A DNA stretch of 64,000 bases from Sarcomyxa edulis (Eukaryota > Basidiomycota > Agaricomycetes > Agaricales > Mycenaceae): assembly GCA_009761415.1 (NCBI GenBank), contig QUOL01000004.1, positions 372,001 through 436,000 on the forward strand, read 5' to 3'. The notes below the pieces were generated by a model. That model was not told where the DNA came from. It did not search any database and saw only the letters and a program-made list of their open reading frames with translations. Shown here piece by piece: positions 18,838 to 38,702 of the stretch. Made by a program: the position numbers and the translations under genes. The first letter of the stretch is position 1, and each line of letters opens with the position of its first letter.

Positions 18838-21098
18838 CTACGTCCAAGCAGCTTTAATTATATCAGAAGCACGCTCGGCTACAAAGTAAATCGGAGCCGT
18901 GATGTGTGCAGCGGGCACGTAGGGCTTCGAGACAAACAAAGCGGATCAGTGACAGCATGATTAATAGAGTGAGAACAACTCACGATGACGGATGCATCTA
19001 CCACACGGAGTCCAGCGACGCCCTTCACAGTCAGGTCGGGGTTAGTAACCCCATAAGAAGCTCCTACGGGCGACATGCTTGCAGTGCCGACTGGATGCCA
19101 TTCGGTGGCTGTGAATGTCTTGACAAAGTCCTCGATGGCCGAATCGGAGGTAACATCCAGGGTAGCCCCAGCGCCGAAAGGTTCGAGTATGAACCCTTCC
19201 CATGGTGAGGCGTTGAGGAAAGTTCTAACACTCTTCACAGCCTCCACCATGACATGGAGATCAAATGGACTCGATAGGTAAGCAGGGTCGATGAGGGGGA
19301 AAGCAAAGGGGTCACTCGAAGCCAGTGTGATCGACCCGCCTGAAAACCCAGAGATGAGGATCAGAGGAAGACTCATGGGACTTGCATGGGACATATGACT
19401 CACGAGATGCAGGAGATGCTACTGTGGTCAAAATACTCATGTAATGACCGGTGGTTGGAGTTGCTTCGACCCAGCTAGCAAATCCATCCTGAATATCGGA
19501 TTAATTGTGACTCCAATGAGCGAGAACGCTATAGACGTACTCCAATGATAAACTCCATGTGCGCAGTGTTGGGCCCCGCAGCTGGATCTGTATATGTATC
19601 GAATATGGGATCGTCACTCGGGAGTCTGAACCAGCCGAGGTGATTGGCAAGTGTGTTCGATAACGGCCCGTTGAAACTGGTCTCCCACTGCTCCGTTACT
19701 TGAGTCGCGTACGTTGCATTCTGTTCGATAGCTTCGAATGTGTCGTTGGTGTCGACGAAGAACTGGTTGGACAACATGGGATGATCGGAAAGGTTTCGGC
19801 CGACGCTTGGGAGATCGACGACGGTCTTGATACCCAGAGAGGACAGAGCTGTTTTATCACCAATACCAGAAAGCATCAGGATTTGGGGGGTGTTTACAGC
19901 CCCTGCGGAAAGGACGATCTCGTTCTTAGCCGTGACGACGTAACGCGTGCCTACAAAAGAGTCAATACTGTTGTTAGAATTCGTGGCTTGAACGAGACAA
20001 ACCCGATGAACTGGTTGCAAACTCTACGCCATTGTACAACGGTAGTCCATCTTTCGTGCCATTCTGTATCAACCTGGTGACTTGAGTATTGAGAAGGACA
20101 TCGAGGTTTGGTCTGTTGGTATATTGGGAATTGATGTATGCAGTAGCCGAGCTACTACGCATTCCACCACCAATTGCGGACTGCGCCCAGCCTGTGAAAC
20201 ATCTTTAGAGAACTAAAATATACATAGGTCTGTCAATATGTCCGCACCGATACCCAATGTATAGCCAGAGTTCATATCAAGATTGAAAGGATATTCAGAC
20301 GAGAGATTCTGCGTAGTTGCAATGACCCTGTCATCAAGAGGTGTAGGCCATCCTGGAAGACTGATTTCTACAGGACCCGACGTGCTGTGCACCGATGGAT
20401 TATATTGCCCTGTCGTGTCATGCCCATCGGCAGGCGAGACAAAATCTTCGACCTACAAGAAGAATTTAAGTCTTGCAAACGATTAGTTTGCACGTAGGAT
20501 GGTCCTCACCTTTAGGATGTAAGGTTGGAGATTATTCCAAGACCAGCCAGAATCACCGGTCACATCGGCAATACGGTCAAAGTCCTCATACGAGCCTCGG
20601 GTGTAGAACATGAAATTGATAGAGCTACTTCCTCCGAGAATTTTGCCGCGAGGGTAAGTGATGGCCCGGTTATTAAATCCAGTTTGAGCCGTCGTCGAGT
20701 AATTCCAAGTCCAAGGAGTATTAGGAGACGCCTCGATACACAAGAAAGGTACAATGGAATCAGTGACGCCTTCGTTTCTGTTCAGATATTAGATGTAAAT
20801 CATCAAGACGAATGTGTTCAGAATGTATCTGCAACATACGTTACGCCGGCTTCGATGACCAGAACATTGAAGGCAGGATCTTCTGTCAGCCTACTAGCGA
20901 CTACATTCCCTGCGGTTCCACCTGAATATCTCCACGTTAGTCTGCTATTCTGAGGACGAGACACTACAGGGACACACCTCCGACGACCACAAAGTCGTAC
21001 GTCTTGCCAGCGACATCAGAAGGGCTGCTAATGAGTTTACTTTGGACGGCACCAAAAGATAGAGATGCCAGCAATATGCTGGTAGAGAAATAAAACAT
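18838..21098 (-). CDS. GMC oxidoreductase 1 (aryl-alcohol oxidase/glucose-methanol-choline family)
   Basis: A multi-exon gene from the ATG at 21098-21096 to the stop at 18840-18838. A hydrophobic N-terminus ([20 protein letters not shown]) indicates secretion. The FAD-binding motif reads [16 protein letters not shown] after splicing, then [26 protein letters not shown] (GMC signature 1) and [17 protein letters not shown] (signature 2). The C-terminal domain has the catalytic [13 protein letters not shown]is and the second His in VPAAHITAP. These flavoenzymes oxidise alcohols or sugars and supply H2O2 in wood- and litter-degrading fungi. Substrate class cannot be fixed by eye. The frame is intact. 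It lies in tandem, same strand, with a close paralogue 1.1 kb upstream. Confidence 0.92.
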
Positions 21099-22234
21099 GG
21101 GAAAGATAACGAAGGGGAGATGAATTCTTGCAATACGAAAGGCTGCTTCATATATAGTTGCGCAATTCTGAAGATTCCTGCCCGGAAAGCCGGATCATAT
21201 TCATATGGATGCGTCAGATAGGATGAAATTGCCTCAGTAAATCGGTATATATTGCTGCTGTTTTCCCAGCTGCTAGCATGACGACCGCTCGGACACCCAT
21301 TCGGTGGAGATCTTTGCCTAGTTTCAATTAGTTCGAAGGGTATAACTCGGGATGCATGACGACATGCCTGTCTGATGCGGTTGGGCAAACCCCGACGCTT
21401 GACGCAAAGTATGCAGGGATTAGGCACATGTCGACGTTGAAGGGGAAGCTACGGAAGTATCGCTAGGAGATTGGCCGCCCCAACGAAGTTCTAAGGTCCC
21501 TTTCACAAGTCGACATAGGTTGATTCTGTTTTGATCATCAGAGTGATTGTGCAGATCACGGTTGGACACGGATCCGCATCAGGAATCAGGACAATTCGCG
21601 ATAAGTAACCTGCGCGCTAGCCATCAGGTTCCTTCAAGGCAACATCGGGCACTATTTTAAACTCACCGAGTCCGAGCGTTGATATACCTGCGGCGTAGTA
21701 CGCATTGCATTTACATCCATCTGTCTGATGTTCGGCTGAGTCAGTAAGCAACTGCCAATGAACTCCCCCCGAGTACCGAGTCGGCGAATGACAGTCCTAT
21801 CCGCGCAAGATGGAATTAAAGAGACTCTTGGCTTCGACACTTCCTGGTCAGAACGTTAGGACCTAGGTAAATTCAATTTTTGGATTTTTGGATTTTTGAA
21901 ATTGGGACAAGTTCAATAATGGTGACTTGGGGCCGTGACGCGTGACGACCATCAGTTTTCAACAACGTCAAATACTCGATCTTACTAATTATCGAAAGTC
22001 ACCCGGAGTCTTATAGGGAAGACCATTTGAAGGCCATCGTCAAAGCCATCGTCAAATTATTGTATATGTAACAAATTAAGCCGTGTATCCGGAACTGTAA
22101 GTAAATTATTGGTGATACAGAGCAAGGAGTTTCCCAGTCCGACTTGACCAAAGTGAGGTTCTGAAAGACCACTATCACTATCAGTCATGGCTTGAGAATA
22201 CAGCGGTGCACAAGTCTCTCATATGTTATTCGGC
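21099..22234 (-). promoter_or_regulatory. Spacer between tandem GMC genes with TATA box for GMC1
   Basis: No gene in this 1.1 kb. A TATATA at 21151-21156 lies about 55 bases upstream of the GMC1 start on the reverse strand and is a credible TATA box. Short A/T repeats (TTTTTGGA-type) occur near 21877-21900. Confidence 0.45.
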
Positions 22235-24570
22235 CTAGTCATGAGCGGCCTTGATTAGATCGGCGGCACGTTCAGCCACCAAATACACGGCAGCTTGAAT
22301 ATGTGCAGCAGGCACCAAGGGCTTCAAGATAATGAGTGAAGTGGATGAACAAGCGTGATGGAAGACTTACTAGCACAGACGCGTCAACGACACGAACTCC
22401 AGCCACACCCTTGACCGTCAAATCTGGATTTGTGACTCCGAATGAAGCGCCTTTGGGAGACATGCTGGCAGTGCCCACAGGATGCCACTCGGTGGCCGTG
22501 AAGGTCTTCACGTAGGTTTCGATAGCAGCGTCGGAAGCGAGATTGACAGGGTGAAATGGTCCGAGAATATAACCCTTCCAAGGCGACGCCGACAAGAATT
22601 TATATACACTCTTGACCGACTCTACGAGCACGTGAAGGTCGAATGGGCTGTTGAGGAAGCCAGGATCGATGATAGGGAAGTCGAAGGGGTTCGCTGTTTT
22701 CAAGGTGATAGATCCACCTGAAACCATTACAGGTCAACAACAGAGACGAAAATTTGGACATTCAGCCAGACTTACGAGAGACTGGAGAGGCTACGGTGGA
22801 GAGGATCGTCATATAATTCCCTGTCGTCGGGAATGCTTCCGTCCAACTTGCGAAACCGTTCTGCAAATCATTGAGAACGAGTAGAAGGGGAACTGGGGAC
22901 AAGAACATACTCCATAAAGCATCTCGAAGTGCGAAGTCTCACTACCAGCGGCTGGATCGGCGTGACTTCTGAATATAGGATCATTTGGTGCAAGCCTGAA
23001 CCAACCGAGGTGGTTTGCGAGTGTGTTAGAAAGACGACCCGTATGGTTTGTAAGCCATTGCTCAGTGAGTTGAGCAGCGAAAGCTGCGTCACGTTCCACG
23101 GGCTCAAAAGTATTTGTCGAATTGACTAAGAATTGATTGGGTAGCATAGGATGATCTGAAAGGTTTTTTCCGACCCCCGGGAGGTTGACGATAGTGGGGA
23201 TTTTCAGCTTCGAGAGAGCGGTTCTGTCTCCAATGCCAGAGAGCATGAGTAGCTGAGGAGTGTTCACTGAGCCTGCCGAGACAATGATCTCTCTCGATGC
23301 TTTGACAGTATAGCGACGGGCTGAACGTATGTGTTAACAGAATTCAAGATGGGACCCGTATACAGAAGACCTACCTCCAGCACTTTGTGCAAATTCGACA
23401 CTGTTGAATAAGGGTAGGCCACCTTTAGCCCCAGATTGAATCAAACGAGTGACTTGAGTCTGGAGAAGGACGTCGAAATTCGGCCTGGTCGTAATCTGGG
23501 TATCCACATACGCAGTCGCGGAGCTACTGCGCTGGCCCTGTCCGATGGTCGATTGAGCCCAGCCTACGTATTATAATATTCAGGTCAGGCATGAGGGCAG
23601 ATCACTTGTTTTACTCACCAACACCTATGGTGTTGCCGGAGTTCATATCAAGGTTGAAAGGAAATGCTGATGATAATTCTTGTGTAGTCTTGAGGATTCT
23701 ACTGTCCAGCTCGGTCGGAAATCCTGGAAGACTGATCTCCACAGCACCGGTGGTACTGTGTATCGAAGGGTCGAATTGACCTGTTGTATCATGACCGTCT
23801 GCAGGAGCGACATAATGCTCAAGCTAAACCCAATTTAGCGTCTAGAAAATCTGAAAATTGTAGAGAACCATATCTGACCTTTTTCAAGTAGGGCTGGAGA
23901 CTATTCCATGACCACCCAGGGTCACCTGTGAGTTTAGCAAAGCGATCAAACTCTTGGGCTGACCCGCGAGTGTAGAACATGAAGTCTTCGAAGAAAGCCA
24001 AGTGATCAGTAGGCGGCCAATTGAGAGAACATAATTCCTCGCACTTATCGAGCTGCTACCACCTAAAAGTTTCCCTCTGGGGTAGGTTATAGCCCTATTG
24101 TTAAATCCAGCCTTCACAAAGTCTGAGCGTACTATAACGATGATGAGACACAAATATAGAAACCTGAGCCGTTGTCGTATAATTCCACGTCCAAGGAGTA
24201 TTCGGGGATGCCTCGGCACATAGGAAAGGGACTATCACATCCACTACCCCGTCATTACTGTGTGTATAGTGAGGTTTAGAACCGGTGTGCAGTTATATGG
24301 CACCTACGTTACGCCCGCTTCTATTATAAGAACACGCACACCGGGAGCTTCTGACAGTCTGCTTGCTACAGCGCTTCCAGCCGTCCCACCTGTTTTTGAA
24401 TAGAGTGAGCTTGACTTCACGTTGAGACCTGGACGATAGTACTGACCTCCGACTACGACATAATCGTACGTTTTGCCCGCTACTTGGGAAGGGTCCGTGT
24501 AGAATTTTCCATAGACAAGTCCTATAAAAATAGAAGATAGAAAGACACTACACAGACTGTAAGATCTCAT
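22235..24570 (-). CDS. GMC oxidoreductase 2 (paralogue of GMC1)
   Basis: From the ATG at 24570-24568 to the stop at 22237-22235. The signal peptide (MRSYSLCSVFLSSIFIGLVYG) is followed by [41 protein letters not shown] (after splicing), [19 protein letters not shown] and the catalytic [15 protein letters not shown], with the second His in VPAAHIQAA. The protein aligns with GMC1 along its whole length, and most intron positions are shared. Two introns, 24162-24112 (after TTTAQ) and 24044-23986 (inside SSIN), interrupt places where GMC1 reads through without a break. These make the gene look frame-broken until they are removed. Function as for GMC1: extracellular FAD alcohol oxidase or dehydrogenase. 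Confidence 0.9.
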
Positions 24571-25094
24571 AGCGGGGAGAGGAATGAGAAACTTGCCCAC
24601 CCAGCAAGTGTTGGACTTTTAAGGACGCGTTTTTTAGAGCCAAGAACAGTCACTGAAGACGTATGACATTCTAGACATCATCCAGGGGTAAGCTATTGAT
24701 GCTACCACTGTCAAGTATGCACAAGTGATGGGAGACGACGTGTGTTATGGCCGAATCAATTCGCTCTTGCGACATTCGGTGATCGGTCATCGAAAGATTG
24801 TCCCGTAAGTATCTCTGCGGATACCTATAGAGACGTTGCGTTGCCGGATATGACAGGATGTCAATCAATCCCCAAGCGAGCCTCGACGTCGGAGGACAGC
24901 AAGTATTTGATTCGAGTCGGAGCAAGGTCTTTATGGGAATGTAACCTGAATCGGATCAATATTTTTGACTAGAGCACTGTGAAGCCCTACAGACCATCAG
25001 TCGCAATGTTTCATGATGAACCGAAGGTAGCGGGTACTTTGAACCAAGAAGGTGAATATGTCGTGCAGGACTGTACTTACATGGTAAGTAGAAG
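24571..25094. other. Intergenic region between GMC2 and the KDZ element
   Basis: Promoter side of GMC2 plus flanking host DNA. No supported gene. The left copy of the 7-base flanking repeat GTAGAAG is at 25088-25094. Confidence 0.5.
25088..25094 (+). repeat. Target-site duplication, left copy (GTAGAAG)
   Basis: Exact 7-base direct repeat with 38696-38702, lying directly outside the terminal inverted repeats of the KDZ element. Its position makes it a target-site duplication from insertion. Confidence 0.75.
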
Positions 25095-25190
25095 CACTTG
25101 ACCCTGGTAGGGTGATATAACACCCTCTGTGAATGGCCAGTGGAGTGCGATGCATAACCGCCTCTAATTTATAGCCTACAATGATGTATT
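25095..25190 (+). repeat. Left terminal inverted repeat of the KDZ element
   Basis: Pairs with 38,600-38,695 in inverted orientation. Of the first 27 bases from ACCCTGG (25101), 23 match the reverse complement of the right end. The match then continues with small gaps through CCTCTAAT at about 25161-25168. Confidence 0.8.
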
Positions 25191-25411
25191 ACATCCCTCT
25201 AATGTACCACATTTAGTCGGCCTCATCCTGGCGACCCTCCGAGGGACCCTCTGTTCATAGACCAGACCGCCCGGAGGGCGGGCCTCAATTTCCTAAATTT
25301 GGCATACCAATCCCGGGCATCGTACGCCCTTCCCAAATCAAGATAATGGCGCGTTCGCGCCGCCCAAAACACGTCATTCCGCCCGCTGCATGAAAAACAT
25401 GTCGAAACTAT

Positions 25412-28400
25412 CTATGTACCGACGGAAGTCAAGTTACGGCCTTCTCCTACTGGATGATCCCTGTTGTATCTCTTCCAAGACTCTAGTAGCATGGGGACCC
25501 CGCTCCACAGAGCTGTGCAGTGAGCCAACATCGACAAACGCATTCGGGACTGCCGAATTGCATATGCACGAATACCCTCTGCCTCCGGCGCTCGTATTCC
25601 TGTAAGACGGCCTGTTTGTGTCTCCCACCACCACGCCTGCCATGTGAAGAAGGCCTTCACCCGTCTCATTTCTTCCACCAACAACTCAACCTCCTCAGTC
25701 CAACGCATCGCTCTCGCCCGACTCTTACACCATTCGACTCGCAATGCTATTGGAAAAGCACAACGTCAGTTATAGTCCATATTTCTTCGATAGATTACTT
25801 ACAATCATGTAGTTGTTCGTCTTCGCTTGCATCGGCCGCTACTCCCTGCACTGTCCATATCCATGACAATGTTCTCCGTCCCTCCGAGTCGCCCATGTCA
25901 CCCACTGATAGCCCACGAACATCCTGCGGGTTCAACGGCCTCAGCACCGTCTCCCATTCGAAGCCTTTGACCAGCAGAGGTGCCAGGACAGCGAGAGCGT
26001 GTCGTGCTACACGATAGCGTAGAGCGGCGGCATCGATTTTGTTCTTCAACTTCTCTATCAGGTTCATTGATCTTGTTAACGCTCGCTGTCCGTGATCAAA
26101 CCGGTCCTTGTAGTGGTAGAGTGACGTTCGGAGTTGTAGGTTTGAACGAATCGCTTGCAGAGAGTCGTGAGCTTGCGCGTACCGCAGCGACCACTCGTGT
26201 TCGCGTAACGTCTTGTCGCAATCGGCCTGCTGGGCAACCATAGATGGCAGCCAAAGCTTCATTGCGAACGCGGATTCCAGAGGAGCATTCTCAGGGGCAG
26301 CCTGAGCTTCCCGCGAGCGTAAAGAACAGGCCCCGGGACAGTACAATTGTTGGACTTCATACCAGGCTTTGATCTTTGTCCGTAAAGCCGTGCCCTGTTG
26401 AACGAGGTTTGAATGTTGTCGATCCGTCGCATGAAGACCCAAAGCAGCCGTGTCAGCAGCTAGGCGTCGTCTGATACAGAGAGGGGTTAGCCATTGAGCA
26501 GCGTTGACAAAGTAAATGCAAGACCTACTGTTGTTCTTCCAGATCTATTCCTGCCATGATTAAAACGCACGGCGACACTGCTTCGTGCATCATCACAATG
26601 TTCCCCTTCTCGATCTCTACAGCCTCTGCTGAATTCATGGCTAGCCGGACGGCCTCTGACGATAGGACTGGTATTGCATTGATTGAGTCTCCGTCGTTAT
26701 TAGCAAGCAGTGACTTGACATACCTTCGCATTTGGGTTCAAACGGGTTCGGCTTTGTATTGTCCTTTTCCCATGCCTCAATATCCGTCCGCCAGATCTCA
26801 ACGTCCGCGGGGAGTAGTACATCCTCTAAGGCTTCATGGCTGATGACATGGTCTCCGCATTCTGGTACCGCAACTTTCATTTTTCGGGCCAATGCTCTCC
26901 CTGCAGCAGTAAATTGCCGTTAGTGAAAGACTGCGAGGGTAATCATCCATAAAACTTACCCATCCGGGTCACCTTCTTCCAATTTCGGTCACCCAAAAAA
27001 TCATCAAGCGTATCTCGACGCGATCCCGGTCCCATCTCTTGAGTCATCCCTGCCGCACTATTGATATCTTCCCAACCCCTCTCTGGCGCTTCTCCGTCCG
27101 TTCGTCCGACGTCTTTGGTGTAGTTGAACGAGAACGAGACCTGACATGCGAGGATGTGGGCAGGTAGATGAAATTTAGGTACACAAAACACTACTGCTCG
27201 TTGTCCTGCAACGAACTGAAATTGGTGCGGGAGCTCCATCATCCGGGTCCACAGATTCTTATGCCATTGACAAGCGATGTCATAGGATACAACGAGGATC
27301 TTGATTTTACTGTCCCGCAAGCTTGAGAAAAATAAGTAGTCCATGTTGGCATATCTAGAAAAACATATGTTAGTGCCCAGAAGATAAACCCAAAATCCAA
27401 CAGACCTTTCACCCTTTTGTAAGTCACCAACCGCCACTGGTCGCCTGAAATCATGCCTTGCGCAGTCGCAGGTTCCTAGACCAGTTGCTGCTAATCCATC
27501 CGATTGCCGTGTTTCGGCGTCGTTGACTGCCTTGTGTGCGACACATGTGCTTGTCTGCAAACAAGAAATCAGTGACTAGACCAAATCTTACAAGCGTGAG
27601 CACGTACCTCCGTCTTCCCTTTGTAATTCTTGAGATACGACTTATACTCAGATTCGTTGACAATATACGCCCATCCATTGCTCAGTCCCGGATCAGCAGC
27701 ATCACTAGACACCAGCTTTCGCCTCATTCTGAAGTTGGCGTCAATCGCCAGGAACAACGCAAATAACCACCTACTAGATAGTCAGTATCAACGCAATGGA
27801 TCTGAAAGACTTGAGTATAGTACGTACTGCTTATCCTCGGGGGCGGTTTCCCATCCTAACGGTAGGTTAATGCCTGGTTGTGGACACGCTGGACAAAACA
27901 CTGCGAGCTGGCCTGCCTTGGTACCTTCTACTCCAGACGGATCGTGACCACGACCACTTCGCTTGAGCATTTTCAGGTGTCGCCATTCACGAACCATCCG
28001 CAGAAACGACTCGTATCGGTCCTAAGAAACAGGCCAATCAGTTTGGAAAAATGAGGAAATCAGAGTGACGCTCGTACCTTTGGGCTAGTTACTCCAGTAT
28101 TATCCGTCCCGCGCACTAAGCTATGATAGAACTCAAAAGCTGTGACCTTTCCCTCCAGACACTCGAGATGGTACCTCTCCAAACAGTTGAAAGTCGCCGC
28201 CGTCTTGGGATTTGAGACAGTCGCGGGAAACATGCGATGACGAAGAAGTTGGGTGGTTTTGTCACACTCGTCCTCGCATCCACAGAAATCCAAGGAGATC
28301 TCATGAATGCCGTGGTTATCGAGAACGACGAAATCGTTGTTAGTCGCGGGGATGGGATTGAGACAAGGCCGGCTGTGGGGATGATTGAGTTGCATTCGTA

Positions 28401-29170
28401 CGCCAAGGGACTTGAGGGTGACGGTCTCAAAGAAAATACCGTTCCAGTTCTATAGAAGGTCTCGTTAAGACTATGAGGATCCACCAAGCATAAGTCATGT
28501 TCACATACCTGGATTCGGTGTAAGATATTCAACTTGTGAGAAGATATGATGCACGATCGGCAAAAAATTTCACATCCATCACAGTCCCGACAACGATATT
28601 CTGGGATGCCAGACTCGCATTTGCCACAGACAGTAGAAGTCATATAATTGCCGCGGCCCTCCAAACGATTGAGTTCTGACAAAAATTGGTCGCGATGGGG
28701 CGCCCACATTTTAAGAGGAAAGTCCTGTGGAAATAGAGATCATATGAGGGTTGCCCTGATGTAGTGATACTATACAATGAATAGCTTACGGATTTCGGTC
28801 TTCGACGTGGTCGAGAAAGAGGCTCTAGGGTAATGTCGTTCAAAAAGGACACATAGTCGGGGTCTACAAAACCCTCCTCGGCAGTAGGTTCTAGAGGCGG
28901 TGGAGGGGAACCTCCGCCATCCAGTTCATCGGCATCGGGCTCGTAGACTGTGTCGTTCCAACGAGGGATAGGCATGGCTTTGACAGGAGATGCGGGGGCA
29001 TGAAAAAAGGTGGTGCTGGTAGAAACTCGTCCATCCTCGTTGTCCAATCGAATATGGCGATGACTGCGATTGACGGGTATGGTGGAGGCGACCTCTGGAG
29101 GAGCCACAAAGAATGAGATTTCAGAATCGGTTCTGCGACGTTTCTGGCCCTTGTTCTTTCCTGGGGCCAT
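25412..29170 (-). CDS. CxC2-type KDZ transposase
   Basis: Multi-exon gene from the ATG at 29170-29168 to the stop at 25412. The N-terminal region (MAPGKNKGQKRRR) is followed by a disordered segment. Next comes the CxC2 cysteine cluster (CGKCESGIPEYRCRDCDGC...FCRSC...H), then LRHRMFPATVSNPKTAATF, typical of KDZ proteins. The catalytic core shows LFLAIDANFRMRRK (first Asp), VVSYDIACQWHKNL (second Asp) and DGEAPERGWEDIN (Glu). The C-terminal third is helical and charged, with coiled-coil-like EKLKNK and Arg/Glu segments. Every junction I checked keeps the frame and no internal stop was found, so it may be active. It cuts and moves the flanking element through DDE chemistry. Confidence 0.92.
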
Positions 29171-29443
29171 CTCTCTTGCGCCCACGCACAACGGAGGCAG
29201 TAAACAAAAACCTTCCTAATCGGTGCATTTTCATTTGTCCTTGATTTGCACCAAAATACCAATATTTGTACATTTTTTACATTTTTTCCCTATATATTTG
29301 TACATAAGAGTTTTGTAGGGAAAGCGGTATTGTAGACTGGAGTAAGTAGGTCAAGACAAAGCATACATGTGTAGGTAGAGGTTGGAGCAAAGCAAGTAGA
29401 GCCTGGGCAAGAAACTATATGTAGAGAGAGACACAAGAAAGAA

Positions 29444-30189
29444 TCAAAGACCACCCTTCCTGAACGCTGCGCGAAGCCGTTCGAGACCTCTACCGTAAAT
29501 GTGTTGTGCGACATCCCACTTCAGGTAGTGTGTCTCCATCTTCCAACGGTAACGAGAGTCATCCCATGCAGATTTGCTAGTTGTCGCCGCCGTGGGCCTA
29601 AGGCATTTGGACGTGCGCATTCGCTTCATCCTGACGTGCGTTTCGGAATGGAATTTCATTCGAGAGAATTCGGGGGAGTTGTTATTGCGGGCTACATCGC
29701 CATCTTTCGCATGGAGCCTATCGCTCTGGTGCTCCCCACATTCGGCGATGTTGGTCCCGGTGTCCGACGAGTCGATAGACGGGGTGGCAAAAGAGAGAGA
29801 ACTTGCTCTCGAGGGGGCAGGAGTACATGGAGAGAACTCGTCGGGATGATCTCTCCAACGTGCACGTACCGGATTGGCGGCATCGATCAAGTGGCGGACG
29901 CGTCGATCGTCGTCCTCTGAATTGATGTAATGGATGTCCCAACCGTTGTTTCTGAAATCTTCATCAGTGACTAGACCGGCGGTATTGGGCTCGCTGTCCG
30001 CTAAGACTAAGGACGGGGCACTGGAACCAGAACCAGGACGACCCCAAATAATGCGAGTGGGACGAAGAGGTGGGACATTGGCTATATGTTATCAAACGTC
30101 AGCTTTTGATATGGGGGGTAAGGTGCCTGTCACTTACCAGGACGAGTATCAGAGGTTTTGAAACTAAGCGAGTCGAGAATGTCAAACAT
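29444..30189 (-). CDS. KDZ-element protein, unknown function (229 aa)
   Basis: Two exons (30189-30138, 30081-29444) give 229 residues in frame. I do not recognise the family. The start MFDILDSLSFKTSDTRP is followed by PTRIIWGRPGSGSSAPSLVL, then NNGWDIHYINSEDDRRVRHL, a Ser/Thr/Pro-rich stretch, and a basic C-terminus with MKRMRTSKCLRP and RGLERLRAAFRKGG. The basic tail could bind nucleic acid. It lies on the same strand as the transposase about 270 bases upstream of its start, so the two may share an expression domain. Upstream open frame at 30190-30380 might be an extra 5' exon. Confidence 0.55.
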
Positions 30190-30830
30190 TGTGTTGAGAC
30201 CGTATCTGCTGAGTTCAGTTGATGAGACATTCAGGACATATAAAAAGAGGAGGGACCGACCTGGCCTGGAGGGGGGGGGAAACGCAAGACATAAAACACC
30301 GTCGGCGGGGGGTTTTAACTGAGTTTCTGGGAGAAGCCGCATAGAGTTGGAAGAAAGAACATTTACAAGCTTTTTGTACATGTTCTGGAAGCCGATGTGC
30401 GGCTATGAATCAAGTGGCGGGGAGAAGGAGACGACACACCTGTGATGCAGTACATCTTACAAGTTATACCCCAACAGTTAGTCCTTCAGCTCGCCCAACA
30501 ATACAACGTGAGGACGATGAGACTGGCTCGGTATTGAGGACGAGTGAGAGCAGATGCTGAACAGAGACGACAGGAGGATGGACAGAGACGAGGATGAAGA
30601 CTGTTGGTGACAAGTTGGTGATATCCGCCACCGCCACAGACCCGTCGATCATACTTTCGGTTCGATTCTCGACTGAAGCGAAAACGTGCCCGTGCGTCGC
30701 AAACTATCAGATAAATTGATAACTCATGCTGTCTTTCTTTTCTGAGGTCGATAAGTGCTTGATATAAGTACACGAAAGTAAAAGTAAACGAAAGTCCAAG
30801 TAAACAGAAGCTGTCAAGGACAGTGTTGCT

Positions 30831-31533
30831 TCACCTGGAAGCCCACTGAAGAAGATCTCGTTCACCGTCAGCGTGCATGACGTGGTGCATCTTGACAAAG
30901 GAACGGTCCCACTTCTTCATGGATTCAGTCAATGCTTCAAGGTCAATGCCATGCTTTTGACGCCAACCGACGGCGGCGCGGGTGCAGCAGACCTTCTCGT
31001 AAGGTTCTGTATCTGTTAGAATAAACTTAACACACAACTTGCACACAACGGCATGTAGAAAATGAGTCAATCGGACCTGAGGTTGTATCAAGACTACCAT
31101 CGGTTGAACCCTGAATGACCGCGGTTGTAGCAGCCTCAGAGACATCAGTCATGGTCGAATCGCGATAAGTACTGACAATCTTGGTCTCGATGTCGGTCGT
31201 GGCGTCAGAGACATCAGTCCTGGTCGTATCGCGATAAGTACTGACGACCTCGGTATCGGTATGGGTCGTGGCCTCAGAGACATCGGTCATAATCGTATAA
31301 CCATCGGGCTCTACGGGACATAAGCGCGCGACCACGGGAAATTCGAGTCTCGAATTACCTGGGGTAGTCTCAACATTGATTGCGGTCGCGGTTGTTACAT
31401 CAGTCTCGGTCTCTAGTAGTAAGTCAATACGTTGGGCGGGACCAGAATGAACAAAAATGCACGTACCGGAGACTTTTGAACGTGGAAAACAGGAATCGAT
31501 ATAAGTAGGAGCGGCATCCTGACTATCTGTCAT
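30831..31533 (-). CDS. KDZ-element protein with internal Thr/Asp-rich repeats (194 aa)
   Basis: Three exons (31533-31467, 31412-31077, 31012-30831) give 194 residues. I do not recognise it. The middle holds about three imperfect copies of a roughly 20-residue unit built on TDVSEATT...ETxxVSTYRDxT. The C-terminal 60 residues (CCTRAAVGWRQKHGIDLEAL to LLQWASR) are folded-looking and charged, with several His (MHHVMHADGE). Splice sites are clean and the frame closes. It is on the same strand as the transposase. The role is unknown; a structural or DNA-bound accessory part is a guess. Confidence 0.5.
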
Positions 31534-32676
31534 TGATTGGTTGTGAGGCAATCAAAATAATATGGAGTCTGGCAGTAACATACCAGCAAGAATCATGATG
31601 TTTGTAACGATCTCAGAAAGCGAGCGCTGGGGAAAGAGGACGCTGCACAAGAAAGAAGAAGCCAAGAGATATTGGGGGAGCAGTGAGGAGGTCAAGTTCA
31701 GGGGAGGAAAAGAAGTCTGAAAAAAAAAGAAGCCATATTTACTGTCCGTAATTGATTCGTAAAGGCTTCGTAAGGCCAAAGAAGTGATCTTGACCGATAG
31801 AGATGATCAACCAGATGTGGACGTCGCAAACTATCAGCTAAAACGCCCAAATCGTGGGCAATTGTCTGAGTGCACAAACAATCAGTACAAAACATATCGG
31901 TGCAATATCAAAGTACTCACCTGAGTAGATCACCTCGTCCTTCTACAAGGGGTTTGTATATCATTATGAGAGTACAACCTGATCATAAAACCCAGAGTTT
32001 ATGGACCATAACGATGGGGATAGAAAGAGGGCTAAAACAGCCGCAAACTATCAGTACGAAACATAAGTGGACAATATGTATACATTCCGCTGCATATTGA
32101 GTTTCGGCCTTCCACACTTGTGTCTAGGGCATCTATGTCAATAATATTTGACACTAAAACCCGGGCTGAATAGCCTACATAGAGAGGGAGGTGAGCAGGT
32201 CTGAAGACAGTCTGACGCTAGGGTTACAACTTGCGTGCACGATATTGAGATGTTCTGTTAGACAGATTCCCTCGTTACTCTGGGTATGGGATATAGGAAG
32301 CTATAGAATTTGAACGTAAGCCAAAGTACAACGATCTGACGTCCGGGAAATGAGGCAGGTGAAGGGGTCTGTGTAAGCTCGAATGTTGAACTCCGAGTTT
32401 GTGTGCGTTGCTTACTGTGATATCCCCTGCTATTTGTCCACATCTATAGCCCATATTAGCAGACTTAGCATCTGGTATGGCGTTTTGTATGTCCCGATCA
32501 CTGGCCTGGATGGTGTGTATCGATATCTCATATAGGAAGAGGTGTGTATAGGGGTCAATTGGGGCTAAACCTACGTCTCTGTAGTCACGATCACAACTTG
32601 CCTCTCACCTCAACGTTCAAGTCAACACGCTCGCTCGCTCACTACGCTACCCCTTGGGGAGCGGTTACACTGCATC
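31534..32676. other. KDZ element interior without a confident gene
   Basis: About 1.1 kb of A/T-rich DNA between divergent gene models. It contains two of three copies of the exact 13-mer CGCAAACTATCAG (31825-31837 and 32042-32054; the third is 30698-30710). Short open frames here show no recognisable motif. Confidence 0.45.
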
Positions 32677-33366
32677 ATGGTACATTCGACCAAGCGACGC
32701 TCTTCGGACTACAACATCAGGTATTTCGTATTCAATTCCAACTCGTCAACTTGAGTTGACACTGATATCCTGTTCCTCATTGCTCTCTCCTTACCTCCAT
32801 ACCTCTTTACCCTCAGAAACAGAGAGCTTATCAATCAAAAATCCAAGGCTCGGATGGCCAAGTCCGTTGCTCATCGAACTCATTAGAGCTGAACTCACAT
32901 CCTCCCCAGGCTGCGGGCTCAACGCAAAGCGGACGGAACTACACCGGCACCCTCTCCTGCAACAGATGAGACCAGACGCCGTCATCGGGTAGCCGTTTCT
33001 GAATACTACCAGCGGTAAGTATACTCCATCATAATCCAATCATCTTTTGCTGAGTCTTCGCAAGAAACCAAGAGAAAATCAAGGAGAAGGCACGGCAACG
33101 GAGACTCGATCACAAGCGGTAAACATCTATTATCGACGTCAACTGTAGCTATACTAATACCTCTAGACAGCCAGATTGCCAATGATGCACGACAGAAACG
33201 ATGGGAGTCCATACAGATAGATCCACTCCTTCAGGACTGTTGCCCCGAGTGTTACGGTGAGGTCCCTATTGCGTGTAGGTGCTTCAAGGAGTCCTTGATT
33301 GTGGAGACTCTCCTTGCAGACCGACTAGAGAGGCACTATCAATACTTTCCCCATCTACGTATATGA
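32677..33366 (+). CDS. Small basic KDZ-element protein with C-terminal cysteine cluster (132 aa)
   Basis: Four exons (32677-32720, 32910-33014, 33065-33118, 33171-33366) close to 132 residues. The N-terminus is strongly basic (MVHSTKRRSSDYNIRLRAQR). A helical Lys/Arg/Glu segment (VAVSEYYQRNQEKIKEKARQ, then RRLDHKRQ) follows. The C-terminal part has a cysteine cluster (CCPECYGEVPIACRC) before a charged tail. The composition suggests nucleic-acid binding plus a metal-binding knuckle. The YYQRNQEKIKEKA type of segment occurs in Agaricomycete transposon-linked hypothetical proteins as far as I recall. Intron 1 (189 bases) is longer than the rest, so a missed exon there is possible. It has the opposite strand to the transposase. 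Confidence 0.5.
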
Positions 33367-33399
33367 CGACCTTACGCACTACGCCGAGCAGCAACGACC

Positions 33400-33500
33400 A
33401 AGTATATATATCTTGACTTGTATACCCGCCCTACTAACATCTTGTATATCCACCCCAGTACATATAGCTTGACTTGTATACCCGCCCACTAACATCTTGG
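33400..33500. repeat. Tandem duplication of a 57-base unit
   Basis: CTTGACTTGTATACCCGCCC followed by ACTAACATCTTG occurs at 33412-33444 and again at 33468-33499, differing by one base. It lies inside the KDZ element. Confidence 0.8.
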
Positions 33501-33648
33501 TCTGTGAATCATATACCACAGTAACTAATATATTCTACATCATTTCTTGTTAAACTTGTACCGTATTTGAGCTTTTCCCCCTGTCTTGCAATCCCTACGT
33601 GTGATGTAGACCAAAATGACATATTGTTTCGCAAATTTTAGTATGTGT

Positions 33649-33780
33649 GGGGGGGGGGGAGCGTATCGTAGTATATATGGAAATCGGCGGGGGCAGCGCG
33701 GTGAGATGTCAGAAGCTATGAGTGGGGGGGGAGCGTATCGTAGTATATATGGAAATCGGCGGGGGCAGCGCGGTGAGATG
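33649..33780. repeat. G-rich direct repeat, two copies of about 58 bases
   Basis: A run of 8-10 G followed by AGCGTATCGTAGTATATATG, then GGCGGGGGCAGCGCGG and GTGAGATG, occurs at about 33649-33708 and 33724-33780 with near identity. The clustered G runs could form G-quadruplexes. It is internal to the KDZ element and not a CRISPR-like array. Confidence 0.8.
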
Positions 33781-33915
33781 AAGGAAGTAGGTACATATTG
33801 ACGAGAGTAAATAATCAGCGTCCGGAGTCAGTTGGTAAGTATGTAGGTAAGTATGATATGTACCAAGCAATTTTAGCTCTCCAAAAAATGTGATCAGCGT
33901 CGCTATGCTCCGCTC

Positions 33916-34679
33916 CTAGACAGTCCTAACAGTGCCTGCCGCCAACGCCGCGGCGTAAGCACTATTAGCAGCACTCTCGGAAGGAACACGAATGCAGCAA
34001 CAGCCAGGGGCTCCAGTGACAAGAGGCCCCACGATGTGCCTGGAGAATCGTCAGGTACGGACAAGTCGAAGGTGAGGGATGACTTACCAGCCTCTGAAGA
34101 CGCCAGTCGACGTCCCAACCGTCACGACATACCAGCGCATCCAGGCCGGAACATCAGGACCCATGCCTAATGCAATCGGTGTCAATGGAAAATTACATAA
34201 TGGGGTACAAATCCTACTCACCCTCTTCGTACTCTGGTTGAGGAGCCCTAGGGCTAGGGGCAACACGAGCTTTGTTGGGGGAAGCAGGAGGAGTCGCATC
34301 TGGGGCGGGGGAAGAGGCGGGGATAGAGGGAGGAGAGGCGGGAGGGGAGGCCACAGCTGGGGCGGGAGAAGCAACAACAGCGGTGACACGAGAAACGATA
34401 GCTGGGACAGGACGAGCTACCGCTGCAGTTGATGCAGCTGATGAGCTAGCGGCAAGAGGAGGTCCTGCTGATGCTCGAGAGGCAATGGCCGCTTCGACCC
34501 TTTCGACTGTAAAGCATGTAAAGTATAATCGGGGGATTGGTTGGTGTCCAGAAAAAAAGAGACAGCGATGAAAAAGACTCACTGGACAACTTAAGGGAGG
34601 CAACCTGGGCTGTGAGAGCTGCCAATGTCAAATCAGATCCGTGTTCGGAGTTAACATTGGTAGTAGAGATCACAGCCAT
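33916..34679 (-). CDS. KDZ-element protein: Ala/Pro-rich linker plus RNase H1 N-terminal-like domain
   Basis: Four exons (34679-34583, 34506-34222, 34166-34088, 34039-33916) give 194 residues. After a short helical N-terminus (MAVISTTNVNSEHG, LTAQVASLKLS) comes a long disordered segment rich in Ala, Pro and Ser. The last 60 residues read WYVVTVGTSTGVFRGWHIVG, then PLVTGAPG and a stretch ending SAYAAALAAGTV. The pattern Y-V-V-x-x-G...G-V-F...W...V-x-G-x-x-G...A is that of the RNase H1 N-terminal (hybrid-binding, viroplasmin-type) fold, which binds RNA:DNA hybrids and dsRNA. The match is by eye, and the usual aromatic/basic contacts before SAYAAA are poorly kept. No RNase H catalytic domain follows. 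Confidence 0.55.
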
Positions 34680-34989
34680 TGTGTCGGTCGGGGGATTCTT
34701 TTGTGGGGGCAGTTGGTGTGGGGAAGTTGATGGTTTGATATCGGTAAAGTGGAGGCTTTTAATTCATCCGCCGCGTGTCAATATGCTCGGCTTCTGACTC
34801 TTATTATAAATTACTGGGATCCTATTGGCTACCTTGATGAACATCTGTCAAAAGCGTGTGGTCAGCGGACCTTCCGAGAGAAATAGGATTAATTTCATTG
34901 GCTGCTGTATATACACTGTGGGGAAACAACGTGTGAGCCAACGTGTCGGAATTATTTTACGATCTGTTGTCTCCGAAATCTCCACAAAA

Positions 34990-37740
34990 ATGGCCCCGCC
35001 GACTTGGGCCACTGATGAACAGACCGCATATTTAGAAAGCCGGATCGACGAATATCTCGATCATCAAAAAGAAGGGACGTTGGTATCATTTTGGACCTTG
35101 CTCTATGAGCCGTGGTTTCAACGTTGGCCCTTGCGCGACATGAATCTTGACACAAGGCTATTCTCCGACGCGGAGAAAGCAGGACATACTGCGCAACTTC
35201 TGAAATGGAAGAATGTGAGTCGGTTTCTCGGTTATAATTTCCTGACGCTAGACGCTAATCTCTTTCTCTTAGCGCTTGAAGCACTGGTACCGTAACCATA
35301 CAGGCGTCGTTGTACGTGGCAAGGCCAAGAACTTCGTGGTCAATCTCAAGGCACGTTTGAAAGCCAATTCACAGCCTACATCTCGAACGCGCATCCATCA
35401 TCCTATCGAAATCTTCTCCACTCTCTATTACAAAAGCGATATGGTTAGTCTGGTCGAACAAAAAACTTCCGAGACTGCTCCATGCAATCCCGATGGACAA
35501 CTGCTACCTGAGACTCGCGAAGATCTCAGCAGACGACGCCTTAGAGTGTACCGACAGGTGATCAACGCTGCATGGGACTCGGCTACTCCCGAGATGAAGG
35601 AAGCAGTGGAGGCAAAATTGGAGGAAGAGCGTGAAGCACTTGCATCTAAGAAGCGTGAAGAGGAAGAGTCCCAGGATGGAGAGACTACAGTCATGAGGAC
35701 ACCTGAAAGTTACGCGGAGTAAGTCGTCTTTCCATTACATAGTATCTGGCAGTTTGACTCATCAGTACACACCAGAGGAATCAAATATCTTCCGAGGATT
35801 CTTGACGATGTATTTACTGAGATCGAAGAGCTCACAGGGTGGTACTGTCTGGCTTTACTCGGTGGACCAGATCCAGAGGCGGGCGGTGATATCAGTGTAC
35901 TCAGGTAAGCACTTGCACCGTGATGTAACACGTTGTGCTAATAACAGAGTATGGACAGTTACCACAAGGGAACATCGACGCAGGGAAACACATTTGGGAA
36001 GGCGTATAGCGAATTCGACAAGCAGTATATGGTTCCCTGGACGGGTTTCGTGCGCTCTGCCTTCCGTGAGTATCTAGGTCTGTATATCTTCAAAGTTCTC
36101 AATACTAATGACATAAAATAGCTCCTCATATTCGTGAAAGTCGTGCTATTCGCGTTGAAGCTTCGTCCTCTGGCCTCACTGGTCCGAAGGAAAACGACAA
36201 TGCACCAGCAGTTGATTCGAGGAAAAAGCTGGCAAGATCGAGTAAAACGTCGAAAGGTACTGCTGGAACAACCCCTGCGGCGTCGGGATCACTTGCACAA
36301 TCTCAAACACCAGGTTCGTCTCTACCCAAAGCACCTGCGCTAGATGCTGCAACGTCGTCGCAAATGCATACTGCACAAGCACAAGCCCAAGCCCTCCCTT
36401 CAGTTTCTTCATCGTCACCTCTGGTTCCTCCAGAAACGACACCTGTAGCGTCGCAAACATCAGCACAGACTCGTTCGTCGCCATCCCTCACTCTTCAACC
36501 ACCCTCGAGTCCTCCAGAAACGGCACCTGAAGCGTCGCAAACATCAGCACAGACTCCTTCGTCGCCATCCCTCGCTCCTCGACCACCCTCGAGTCCTCCA
36601 GAAACGGCACCTGAAGCGTCGCAAACATCAGCACAGACTCCTTCGTCGCCATCCCTCGCTCCTCGACCACCCTCGAGTCCTCCAGAAACGGCACCTGGAG
36701 CGTCGCAAACATCAGCACAGACTCCTTCGTCGCCATCCCTCGCTCCTCGACCACCCTCGAGTCCTCCAGAAACGGCACCTGAAGCGTCGCAAACATCAGC
36801 ACAGACTCCTCCTTTGCCACCCTTGATTCCTCGACCACCGCCCTCAAGTTCACCAGAATCGATACCTGAAGCGTCGCAAATTTCATCACAGTCTTCGGGT
36901 CTTTCTCCGCCTGCGCCTGCGCCAACTCTGGACACTGCATCATCCCAATCCCAACCTCTCCCTTCTGGCTCTCCAACGCGACCACCATCATCCCCAGTTC
37001 CACAACCCCAACAGCGGGAGCTCCGAGGCAGACAAAAACCACCGCCGCCGACTCCCCCAGGTGGACGAAGGCGATCACCGTCTGTCGAGTATGTCTTCAC
37101 ACCACGTCCACCCTCTTCACCCCCTCGCAAATCACCTTCACCCCCTCGTCCTAAGGTTAAGGTACCACTTTGGTTCAAAGGGGCTAAGGCATGGCTGCGC
37201 GAAGTACCTTTAGGAGAGGACTGGAGTCTGGCTGTATCTTTATGGGGGGAGATGGAGGCTGGATTACGGTTTGGCGTAGAGGGGAAAGCCCAGTTTTCGG
37301 CCAAACTGCGTCCCCCCCAGGTCAAATATTGGATAGCTAGGGCGAGGAAGTACACCATCATTCCAGACCTTGGGGATGTTCCGGAATACGCGGCGACACT
37401 ATTGTCGTGGTGGGATTCAATCCAACCGGCTTGGAGAAGAGGAGATGGATTGCGCCCCAAAGCTATCTACGTCAATCGCAATCCAGACAAGGACGACGAT
37501 GTGAACGACTGGGCGGAGTTAAAGAAAGGGGGGCCGAACGGTTTCTTCATCATCTTGCTGGCCTTCAGTTGGTGGGGACGGAGTGATGAGAAGAATATTC
37601 AGGAATGGAATATAGCTACGGCCGACTTGCGACGCTGCCTGGAACGGATGTCTGTATCCTCGGAGAAGAGGCCTCCACCACAAGTTGGAGAGGTAAGCAC
37701 TGCTGAAAAACGAAGGTATGGCTACAATTCCGATCCCTGA
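34990..37740 (+). CDS. KDZ-element protein, 844 aa, with Pro/Ser-rich minisatellite
   Basis: Five exons (34990-35214, 35273-35718, 35776-35904, 35950-36065, 36122-37740) close exactly. The N-terminal third (MAPPTWATDEQTAYLESRID, RLKHWYRNHTG, RRLRVYRQVINAAWDSATPE, EIEELTGWYCLALLGGPDPE) has the look of a family found in many Agaricomycete genomes next to KDZ transposases. Its function is unknown. A long disordered Pro/Ser/Thr region contains six 28-residue repeats, ending in basic PPRPKVKVPLWFKG. A folded C-terminal domain (GAKAWLREVPLGEDWSLAVS, ARARKYTIIPDLGDV, NGFFIILLAFSWWGRSDEK) completes it. At the 3' end a GTAAGC donor at 37693 offers an alternative terminus slightly downstream. Two internal acceptors use a second nearby AG. 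Confidence 0.6.
36427..36930 (+). repeat. 84-base coding minisatellite, six copies
   Basis: Units start at 36427, 36511, 36595, 36679, 36763 and 36847 (CCTCCAGAAACGGCACCT in the central ones). Each encodes 28 residues of type PPETAPEASQTSAQTPSSPS. Copies two to four are almost identical at DNA level; the outer copies are diverged. It is in frame within the 844-residue KDZ-element gene. Confidence 0.9.
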
Positions 37741-38102
37741 CTATCTAGACTGACATCCATGCGTCGTAGACGAAAGAAGGCTTGACACCGTCCTCTTCGT
37801 CGCCCCGTACTGTGTCCAGGCATCACACATTTTGAACTGTCGTACATACCGCTCCCTAATGCTTTTTTTTTGGACTATTGTACATACTGCTACTTATACT
37901 AACTTGTCTTGCAGTTTTGATTTCTTGGTGTAATGGAGTAAAATACATATAGGTCTCACTAGTATATAGTATTATAGGGATATATTGAGGTAATTTCGGC
38001 GTCGACATCAGTCGACGTCGTGTCTAATACAATTTTGGTTTCTTGGTGTAGATATGACAGAGATTAAAAACATGAGATACAACGTAGGTAGAAAATGCCT
38101 AG
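37741..38102. other. KDZ element 3' interior, non-coding
   Basis: A/T-rich with short homopolymers. Holds the probable 3' end of the 844-residue gene and an inverted GTCGAC-type repeat (GGCGTCGACATCAGTCGACG, 37998-38017). No gene seen. Confidence 0.45.
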
Positions 38103-38515
38103 GATGACACCGTTAGTCGGGGCTTTCTTTATGTTTTTTTTTTGCAGAAGGTGGGAGAGCGGGATGGTATACTGGGAACACCCAAAGCAAATATTGTGGA
38201 ATGAGAACGTACAACCTAGAATGAGACCCTCTATAATAGTGAGGCATTTTTGGTATGTTTTTTTGGCGGCAATATAGGAGGGCGGGAGGGCGGGACGGCA
38301 TGCCTAATTGGGAACGCGCAAAGTACATACCGGGGAAATGGTATCAAAACAAACATTGAATGACCCCTGTACAATGGTCGGGCTTTTTGGTATGTTTTTT
38401 TTGCGGCAGATTTAGGGGGGCGGGAGGGGAGGGCGGGAGGCCGGCGGGATGGCGGCGGGAGGACGGGATGGAATGCCCAGGTGGGAATACCCGAAGCGAG
38501 CGCCGGGGAATGTAA
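38103..38515. repeat. Subterminal tandem repeats of the KDZ element, three diverged copies
   Basis: Three units of roughly 115-160 bases begin near 38103, 38220 and 38356. Each has an AATGA-type lead, a GGC-TTTTTGGTATG and T-tract core, GCGG-CA, a GGGCGGGAGGG-type run, then GGGAATACCCGAAGCGA-like sequence. They lie just inside the right terminal repeat and may be transposase binding sites. Confidence 0.75.
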
Positions 38516-38599
38516 AAATAGGCCCCAAAATAAGCCCGGTGCCCCAAAATTTCGGCCGCGGGCGCTGATTATTAAGCATCAAATTACATCAGTACGTGA

Positions 38600-38695
38600 T
38601 GTATCACGGATGAATCATGGATTAGAGGTGGTGATGCAACACCACTCCGTTCTCTTGCAGAGGAGGGTGATATATCAGATTACCAGGGTTGCCTG
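38600..38695 (-). repeat. Right terminal inverted repeat of the KDZ element
   Basis: The reverse complement begins CAGGCAACCCTGGTA and continues TGATATATCACCCTC, pairing with the left end at 25095. Interior parts GGAGTG, TGCAT and CCTCTAAT occur in the same order in both. Confidence 0.8.
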
Positions 38696-38702
38696 GTAGA
38701 AG
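38696..38702 (+). repeat. Target-site duplication, right copy (GTAGAAG)
   Basis: Matches the left copy at 25088-25094 exactly and abuts the right terminal repeat. Confidence 0.75.

Follow-up and report, generated by a model that had tools for sequence, protein, structure and literature searches.

The 64-kb window analysed here, a stretch of the Sarcomyxa edulis assembly GCA_009761415.1 (QUOL01000004.1; C34:372001-436000, where C numbers denote assembly contigs), contains what is very probably a complete cut-and-paste transposon of the KDZ superfamily, potentially autonomous and, judged by its ends, of Kyakuja type; a further gene that it carries, gene 6, may serve as a helper. The new observation is a fixed linkage of gene 6 with the KDZ transposase at opposite ends of the element. 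The element proper occupies window positions 25,095-38,695 (13,601 bp). An original prediction, made from the sequence of the window alone, had given its span as 25088..38702; both ends were placed correctly, but this span takes in the duplications on either side. Genome-wide results refer to the assembly of one strain (35.6 Mb, 40 contigs), in which loci were found as six-frame exon hits.

As predicted, the ends form an inverted pair directly flanked by GTAGAAG, and the match between the two flanks is exactly 7 bp, with the adjacent base mismatched on either side. With 18 occurrences of GTAGAAG/CTTCTAC in the window, the word by itself is weak evidence, and its strength lies in its exact position flanking both ends. 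The tip hexamers (CACTTG and, read inward, CAGGCA) are mostly unpaired and have only the initial CA in common. Inward of them the ends pair in order through ACCCTGGTA, TGATATA, CACCCTC and the remaining words named in the original prediction, with identity at 25 of the first 33 positions, a value that none of 2,000,000 random anchored window pairs attained (maximum 22). Over bases 7-100, these imperfect terminal inverted repeats (TIRs) are identical in 66 of 98 aligned columns. The motif TGATRYA, a candidate transposase binding site, is present in 8 copies within the 240 terminal bases, with 17 copies in the 13,361 interior bases. Near the right end, two stretches of some 90 bp (38213-38304 and 38352-38442) form an internal repeat and are 80% alike.

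The end motif, allowing at most one mismatch, was found at three places in the genome, namely both window ends and C23:2380337, and a transposase 66% identical in DNA was located at C23:2389487-2392515. The sister element on C23 is complete (C23:2380331-2393333, 13,003 bp), has AATCTGT on both sides, and encodes the transposase and genes 2, 4, 5 and 6 in identical order and orientation. Its gene-6-side tip equals that of the window element over the first 15 bases, and TGATRYA is again present in 8 copies in its 240 terminal bases (11 in 12,763 interior bases). The search for further loci sharing both terminal repeats and gene set, which had been suggested as a check, is thus answered by this element. 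The comparison also bears on the five additional genes that had been proposed. Four of them (29.4-30.1, 32.9-33.4, 33.9-34.7 and 35.0-37.7 kb) are colinear in the C23 sister, whereas the model at 31.0-31.55 kb has neither a counterpart there nor a Pfam match. Third codon positions were the most diverged in all 15 exon segments compared between the two elements (differences of 0.52-0.71, against 0.07-0.50 at positions 1 and 2), indicating that the genes have been maintained as coding and are not chance reading frames.

Gene models were rebuilt for the transposase and gene 6; for genes 2, 4 and 5, parts have been identified. In the transposase, 10 GT-AG introns of 51-71 nt connect 11 stop-free exons from 29,170 down to 25,412, with the top-scoring intron taken at the several junctions that allowed alternative in-frame introns. 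The expectation of an open CxC2 KDZ transposase retaining its acidic positions was borne out. The 1,057-residue product matches PF18803 and PF18758, as do all of the best 120 of 2,261 database relatives (E<=0.001), many of them from Suillus, Hygrophoropsis, Leucogyrophana, Lyophyllum and Collybia; the relatives listed reach 60% identity over residues 200-660. In an alignment with these best 120 relatives, 116, 115, 117 and 119 sequences retain the acidic residues D393, D512, E575 and E578, respectively, and either E575 or E578 is the candidate catalytic glutamate. The element hence presents the defining features of the KDZ superfamily, a KDZ domain with conserved acidic residues and an associated CxC cluster, here CxC2.

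The C-terminal domain of gene 6 was used to survey its distribution. A KDZ transposase lies at most 16 kb away at 23 of the 30 loci bearing this domain (about 1.3 expected), and at all 23 linked loci the two genes are on opposite strands and both face outward. Clustering divides 13 aligned gene-6 copies into 6-7 groups. Gene 6 is not a random passenger, its tie to KDZ loci recurring across many diverged elements, and among the KDZ loci fetched it was present only at those of CxC2 type. Of the 84-bp repeats encoding the gene 6 linker, six stand in register and those in the middle are 95-100% alike; the array is probably unstable in length. A fixed partner gene of CxC2-KDZ elements was not found in the literature searched, although Iyer et al. 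2014, the paper that established the KDZ group, may mention one, and the available portion of the Kyakuja account (PMC12730594) makes no mention of gene 6. Among other KDZ loci of this genome, ten (L008-L017) have the KDZ domain within one exon, nine of them 87-99% alike in DNA and one with an internal TGA; these ten yielded no CxC2 match and no gene 6. Within the 573-618 kb stretch of C4, a KDZ gene (573.6 kb) and a hit to the middle exon of gene 6 (617.4 kb) enclose a KDZ/gene-6 element at 593-601 kb, an arrangement that suggests one element nested within another.

Two more KDZ families extend the comparison of ends. One comprises three near-identical insertions of 11.6-11.8 kb (two on C12, one on C36), whose ends were determined by comparing copies and whose duplications are GGGTAGT, CTTCGCC and TAGCTTC; the other comprises two C40 insertions of 11.1-11.2 kb, with GTCCGCC and ACGTCGT. 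A pair on C2, read at one side only, was left out of the count. In all seven insertions with both ends determined (window, C23, C12 twice, C36, C40 twice) the flanking sequence fits a duplication of 7 bp directly adjoining the tips, unambiguously so in four of them (window, C36 and both C40). In all seven, furthermore, the inverted repeat begins at about base 7, inside the tip hexamer. The repeats of the C12/C36 and C40 families exceed 600 bp, lie behind the tip hexamers GAGTCA and CACTAG, and belong to termini of which one starts with GA and the other with CA. The description of such elements as TIR-less may stem from this base-7 offset. The two C12 elements (C12:622041-633606 and C12:637721-649286; 11,566 bp, near-identical) are inverted, 4.1 kb apart, with their gene-6 sides facing each other and a separate duplication for each. 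The two C40 elements (C40:731146-742251 and 771638-782847) are close copies whose interiors lie in opposite orientations when the tip sequences are taken as reference, which would fit a flip of one copy by recombination between its long inverted repeats.

These features suggest an assignment to the Kyakuja type, made by ends and duplication and not by phylogeny. According to the excerpts of Kojima 2025 (PMC12730594), Kyakuja elements have 7-bp duplications and 5'-CA..TG-3' termini, while Zisupton and Dileera have 8-bp duplications. The window element (CACTTG..TGCCTG) and its C23 sister (CAGGCA..CTGGTG) both show CA..TG termini, and the concern raised in the original prediction over 7 versus 8 bp resolves into the Kyakuja value. 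Kyakuja-1_LB and -2_LB of Agaricomycotina are likewise KDZ elements of mushroom hosts with 7-bp duplications and CA..TG termini; they differ in carrying TET/JBP genes and in being described, in the excerpted account, as devoid of TIRs. In the S. edulis genome, six weak hits to the TET/JBP family PF12851 were obtained, none above the cut-off and none inside the window element. The Cryptococcus elements KDZ1, KDZ2 and KDZ3, which have been shown to move, are also large (9-11 kb) and TIR-bearing, but the available text (PMC12810828) describes CxC1, TIRs of 139-241 bp and duplications of 8 bp (KDZ1) or 4-8 bp (KDZ2, KDZ3). Animal Zisupton also has a KDZ-type transposase, with a CxC7 cluster (PMC12062965, in excerpt). 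In Pleurotus ostreatus, 36 KDZ copies are recorded, and CxC2 precedes the intact ones as in the window element; the portion of that account available (PMC7641404) gives no ends, duplications or partner gene. Boundaries of KDZ elements are less rarely defined than the original prediction had claimed: they are reported, within the text available, for the Cryptococcus elements, the TET-bearing families and the KDZ and Plavaka elements of the agaric Marasmius oreades (PMC8290104), the last based on target-site duplications and with TIR motifs in supplementary material.

The remaining genes are more restricted (Table 1). No genome match to gene 2 at E<=0.001, and no significant match to gene 4, was obtained beyond the window element and its C23 sister. 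Gene 4 encodes a basic region (..EYYQR-NQEKIKEKARQRR..) and a CPxC..CxC cluster. Found in the sister pair only, genes 2 and 4 look like subfamily cargo. Gene 5 contains a motif, RWYVVTVGTSTGVFRGW, that recalls the N-terminal domain of RNase H1 (PF01693), but a query with approximate splice joins scored below the cut-off (E 0.059; 14.1 bits against 21), and its role is uncertain. The additional genes, proposed collectively either to assist transposition or to be passengers, hence do not form one class, gene 6 being widely KDZ-linked and genes 2 and 4 confined to the sister pair. Outside the element, just left of the insertion, two adjoining stretches (window 20245-24261) are 72-75% alike in DNA, a probable tandem gene duplication; the stretch at 22.8-24.6 kb matches aryl-alcohol oxidases (PDB 3fim/5oc1, 3e-36).

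Table 1. Features of the KDZ element and its flanks, in window coordinates.
Feature	Position	Strand	Remarks
Left target-site duplication GTAGAAG	25088..25094	.	adjoins left end
Left tip hexamer CACTTG	25095..25100	+	outside inverted repeat
Left imperfect TIR, bases 7-100	25101..25194	+	with TGATRYA motifs
CxC2-KDZ transposase, 11 exons, 1,057 aa	25412..29170	-	reads toward left end
Open stretch with KDZ catalytic domain	26943..27575	-	PF18758, 1.8e-51
Exon segment with CxC2 cysteine cluster	28063..28449	-	PF18803, 4.7e-42
Gene 2, open stretch taken as last exon	29447..30088	-	C23 counterpart, 50% aa identity over 74 columns
Open stretch, putative gene	31027..31551	-	unsupported
Gene 4, exons approximate	32893..33366	+	kept in C23 sister
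Gene 5, limits approximate	33919..34679	-	kept in C23 sister
Gene 6, 5 exons, 841 aa	34990..37740	+	reads toward right end; KDZ partner gene
Gene 6 HMG-box-like domain	35381..35662	+	weak, structural likeness only
Gene 6 tandem repeats, 84 bp (28 aa)	36342..36845	+	proline/serine-rich linker
Gene 6 C-terminal tryptophan-rich domain	37162..37737	+	30 loci in genome, no Pfam family
Right imperfect TIR, bases 7-100 from right end	38596..38689	-	with TGATRYA motifs
Right tip hexamer, CAGGCA read inward	38690..38695	-	equals gene-6-side tip of C23 sister
Right target-site duplication GTAGAAG	38696..38702	.	adjoins right end

A working model can be outlined on this basis. The cysteine cluster of the transposase would bind the subterminal TGATRYA clusters, and, as the structure of the copies suggests, cleavage would take place at the outer boundary of each 6-bp tip, followed by insertion with a 7-bp stagger. 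With its HMG-box-like domain, long proline/serine-rich linker and tryptophan-rich C-terminal domain, gene 6 could encode a dedicated DNA-binding helper that brings together the element ends or the target, a role suggested by the constancy of its linkage, by the constraint on its coding sequence and by a weak resemblance to HMG boxes. We put forward only tentatively that gene 6 aids transposition by binding or bending DNA. With similar reserve, CxC2-KDZ (Kyakuja-type) mushroom elements might be viewed as two-component systems, in which a transposase and an opposite-end DNA-binding partner both face outward between inverted repeats that start six bases inside the tips. Genes 2, 4 and 5 would be cargo or regulators of the subfamily.

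Several observations weigh against the interpretation as a complete Kyakuja-type element with a helper gene. A gapped local alignment of the ends (about 320 bp) is less clear than the anchored comparison, scoring 37.5 where 1,000 shuffles gave 24 and about 2,000 real pairs from the window gave as much as 35. The duplications of the C23 and both C12 insertions extend by one neighbouring base and, taken singly, are readable as 8 bp; the tips of these insertions are the same as those of unambiguous ones. The absence of TIRs reported, in the excerpted account, for two TET-bearing Laccaria families does not hold for the window element, although this trait is descriptive and may not define Kyakuja. 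A stop lies in the C23 copy, within an extra stretch of the last gene-6 exon that is read as an intron. Moreover, no other close DNA copy of the window element was found in the assembly, and 6 of the 18 CxC2-positive loci fetched lack a C-terminal gene-6 hit within 16 kb.

Those six loci also lend support to an alternative in which the KDZ element is genuine and gene 6, like the other genes, is a long-carried passenger without a role in transposition, serving for instance in silencing evasion or as cargo of benefit to the host, and kept because the unit moves whole. Available text indicates that accessory genes are frequent in KDZ elements of fungi (PMC12477816, citing Iyer 2014) and that the TET/JBP genes of published Kyakuja elements are probable anti-silencing cargo (PMC12730594). 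Cargo would be expected to shift place, however, and the position and orientation of gene 6 are constant at 23 of 23 linked loci across diverged elements, in contrast with the confinement of genes 2 and 4 to the sister pair. We regard this passenger role as possible, though less likely than not.

It is improbable that the window element is an old immobile relic with a transposase open by chance. That no close second copy was found and that the ends are of limited identity would suit a relic, but the 11 stop-free exons, intact splice sites, perfect 7-bp duplication and third-position excess relative to the C23 sister would not, and an insertion of great age would not be expected to keep its duplication perfect. 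The description of the element as recent, on the other hand, is not supported: no close other copy was found in the assembly, and the ends are only about two-thirds identical to each other.

We consider a Zisupton- or Dileera-type element very improbable. Such an element would share the superfamily domain, and three of the seven duplications can singly be read as 8 bp; against this, 8-bp duplications are reported for both groups in the excerpts of PMC12730594, those of the window and three other insertions are unambiguously 7 bp, and the cluster is CxC2, as opposed to the CxC1 of Cryptococcus KDZ1-3 (PMC12810828, in part). Coincidental inverted words and flanks, or mis-assembly, might be entertained given how often GTAGAAG recurs and how little the gapped score exceeds the best real pairs, but are excluded for practical purposes by the end-similarity null test and by the C23 sister, in which the ends, the tips and the order of the genes recur.

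Mushroom genomes abound in KDZ elements, but few of these have a defined working unit. The exact ends, the 7-bp rule across seven insertions and the candidate second protein together provide a concrete minimal element. If gene 6 is necessary, this would assign a function to the unnamed mushroom proteins that contain its domain, and genome annotation could mask such proteins as transposon genes.

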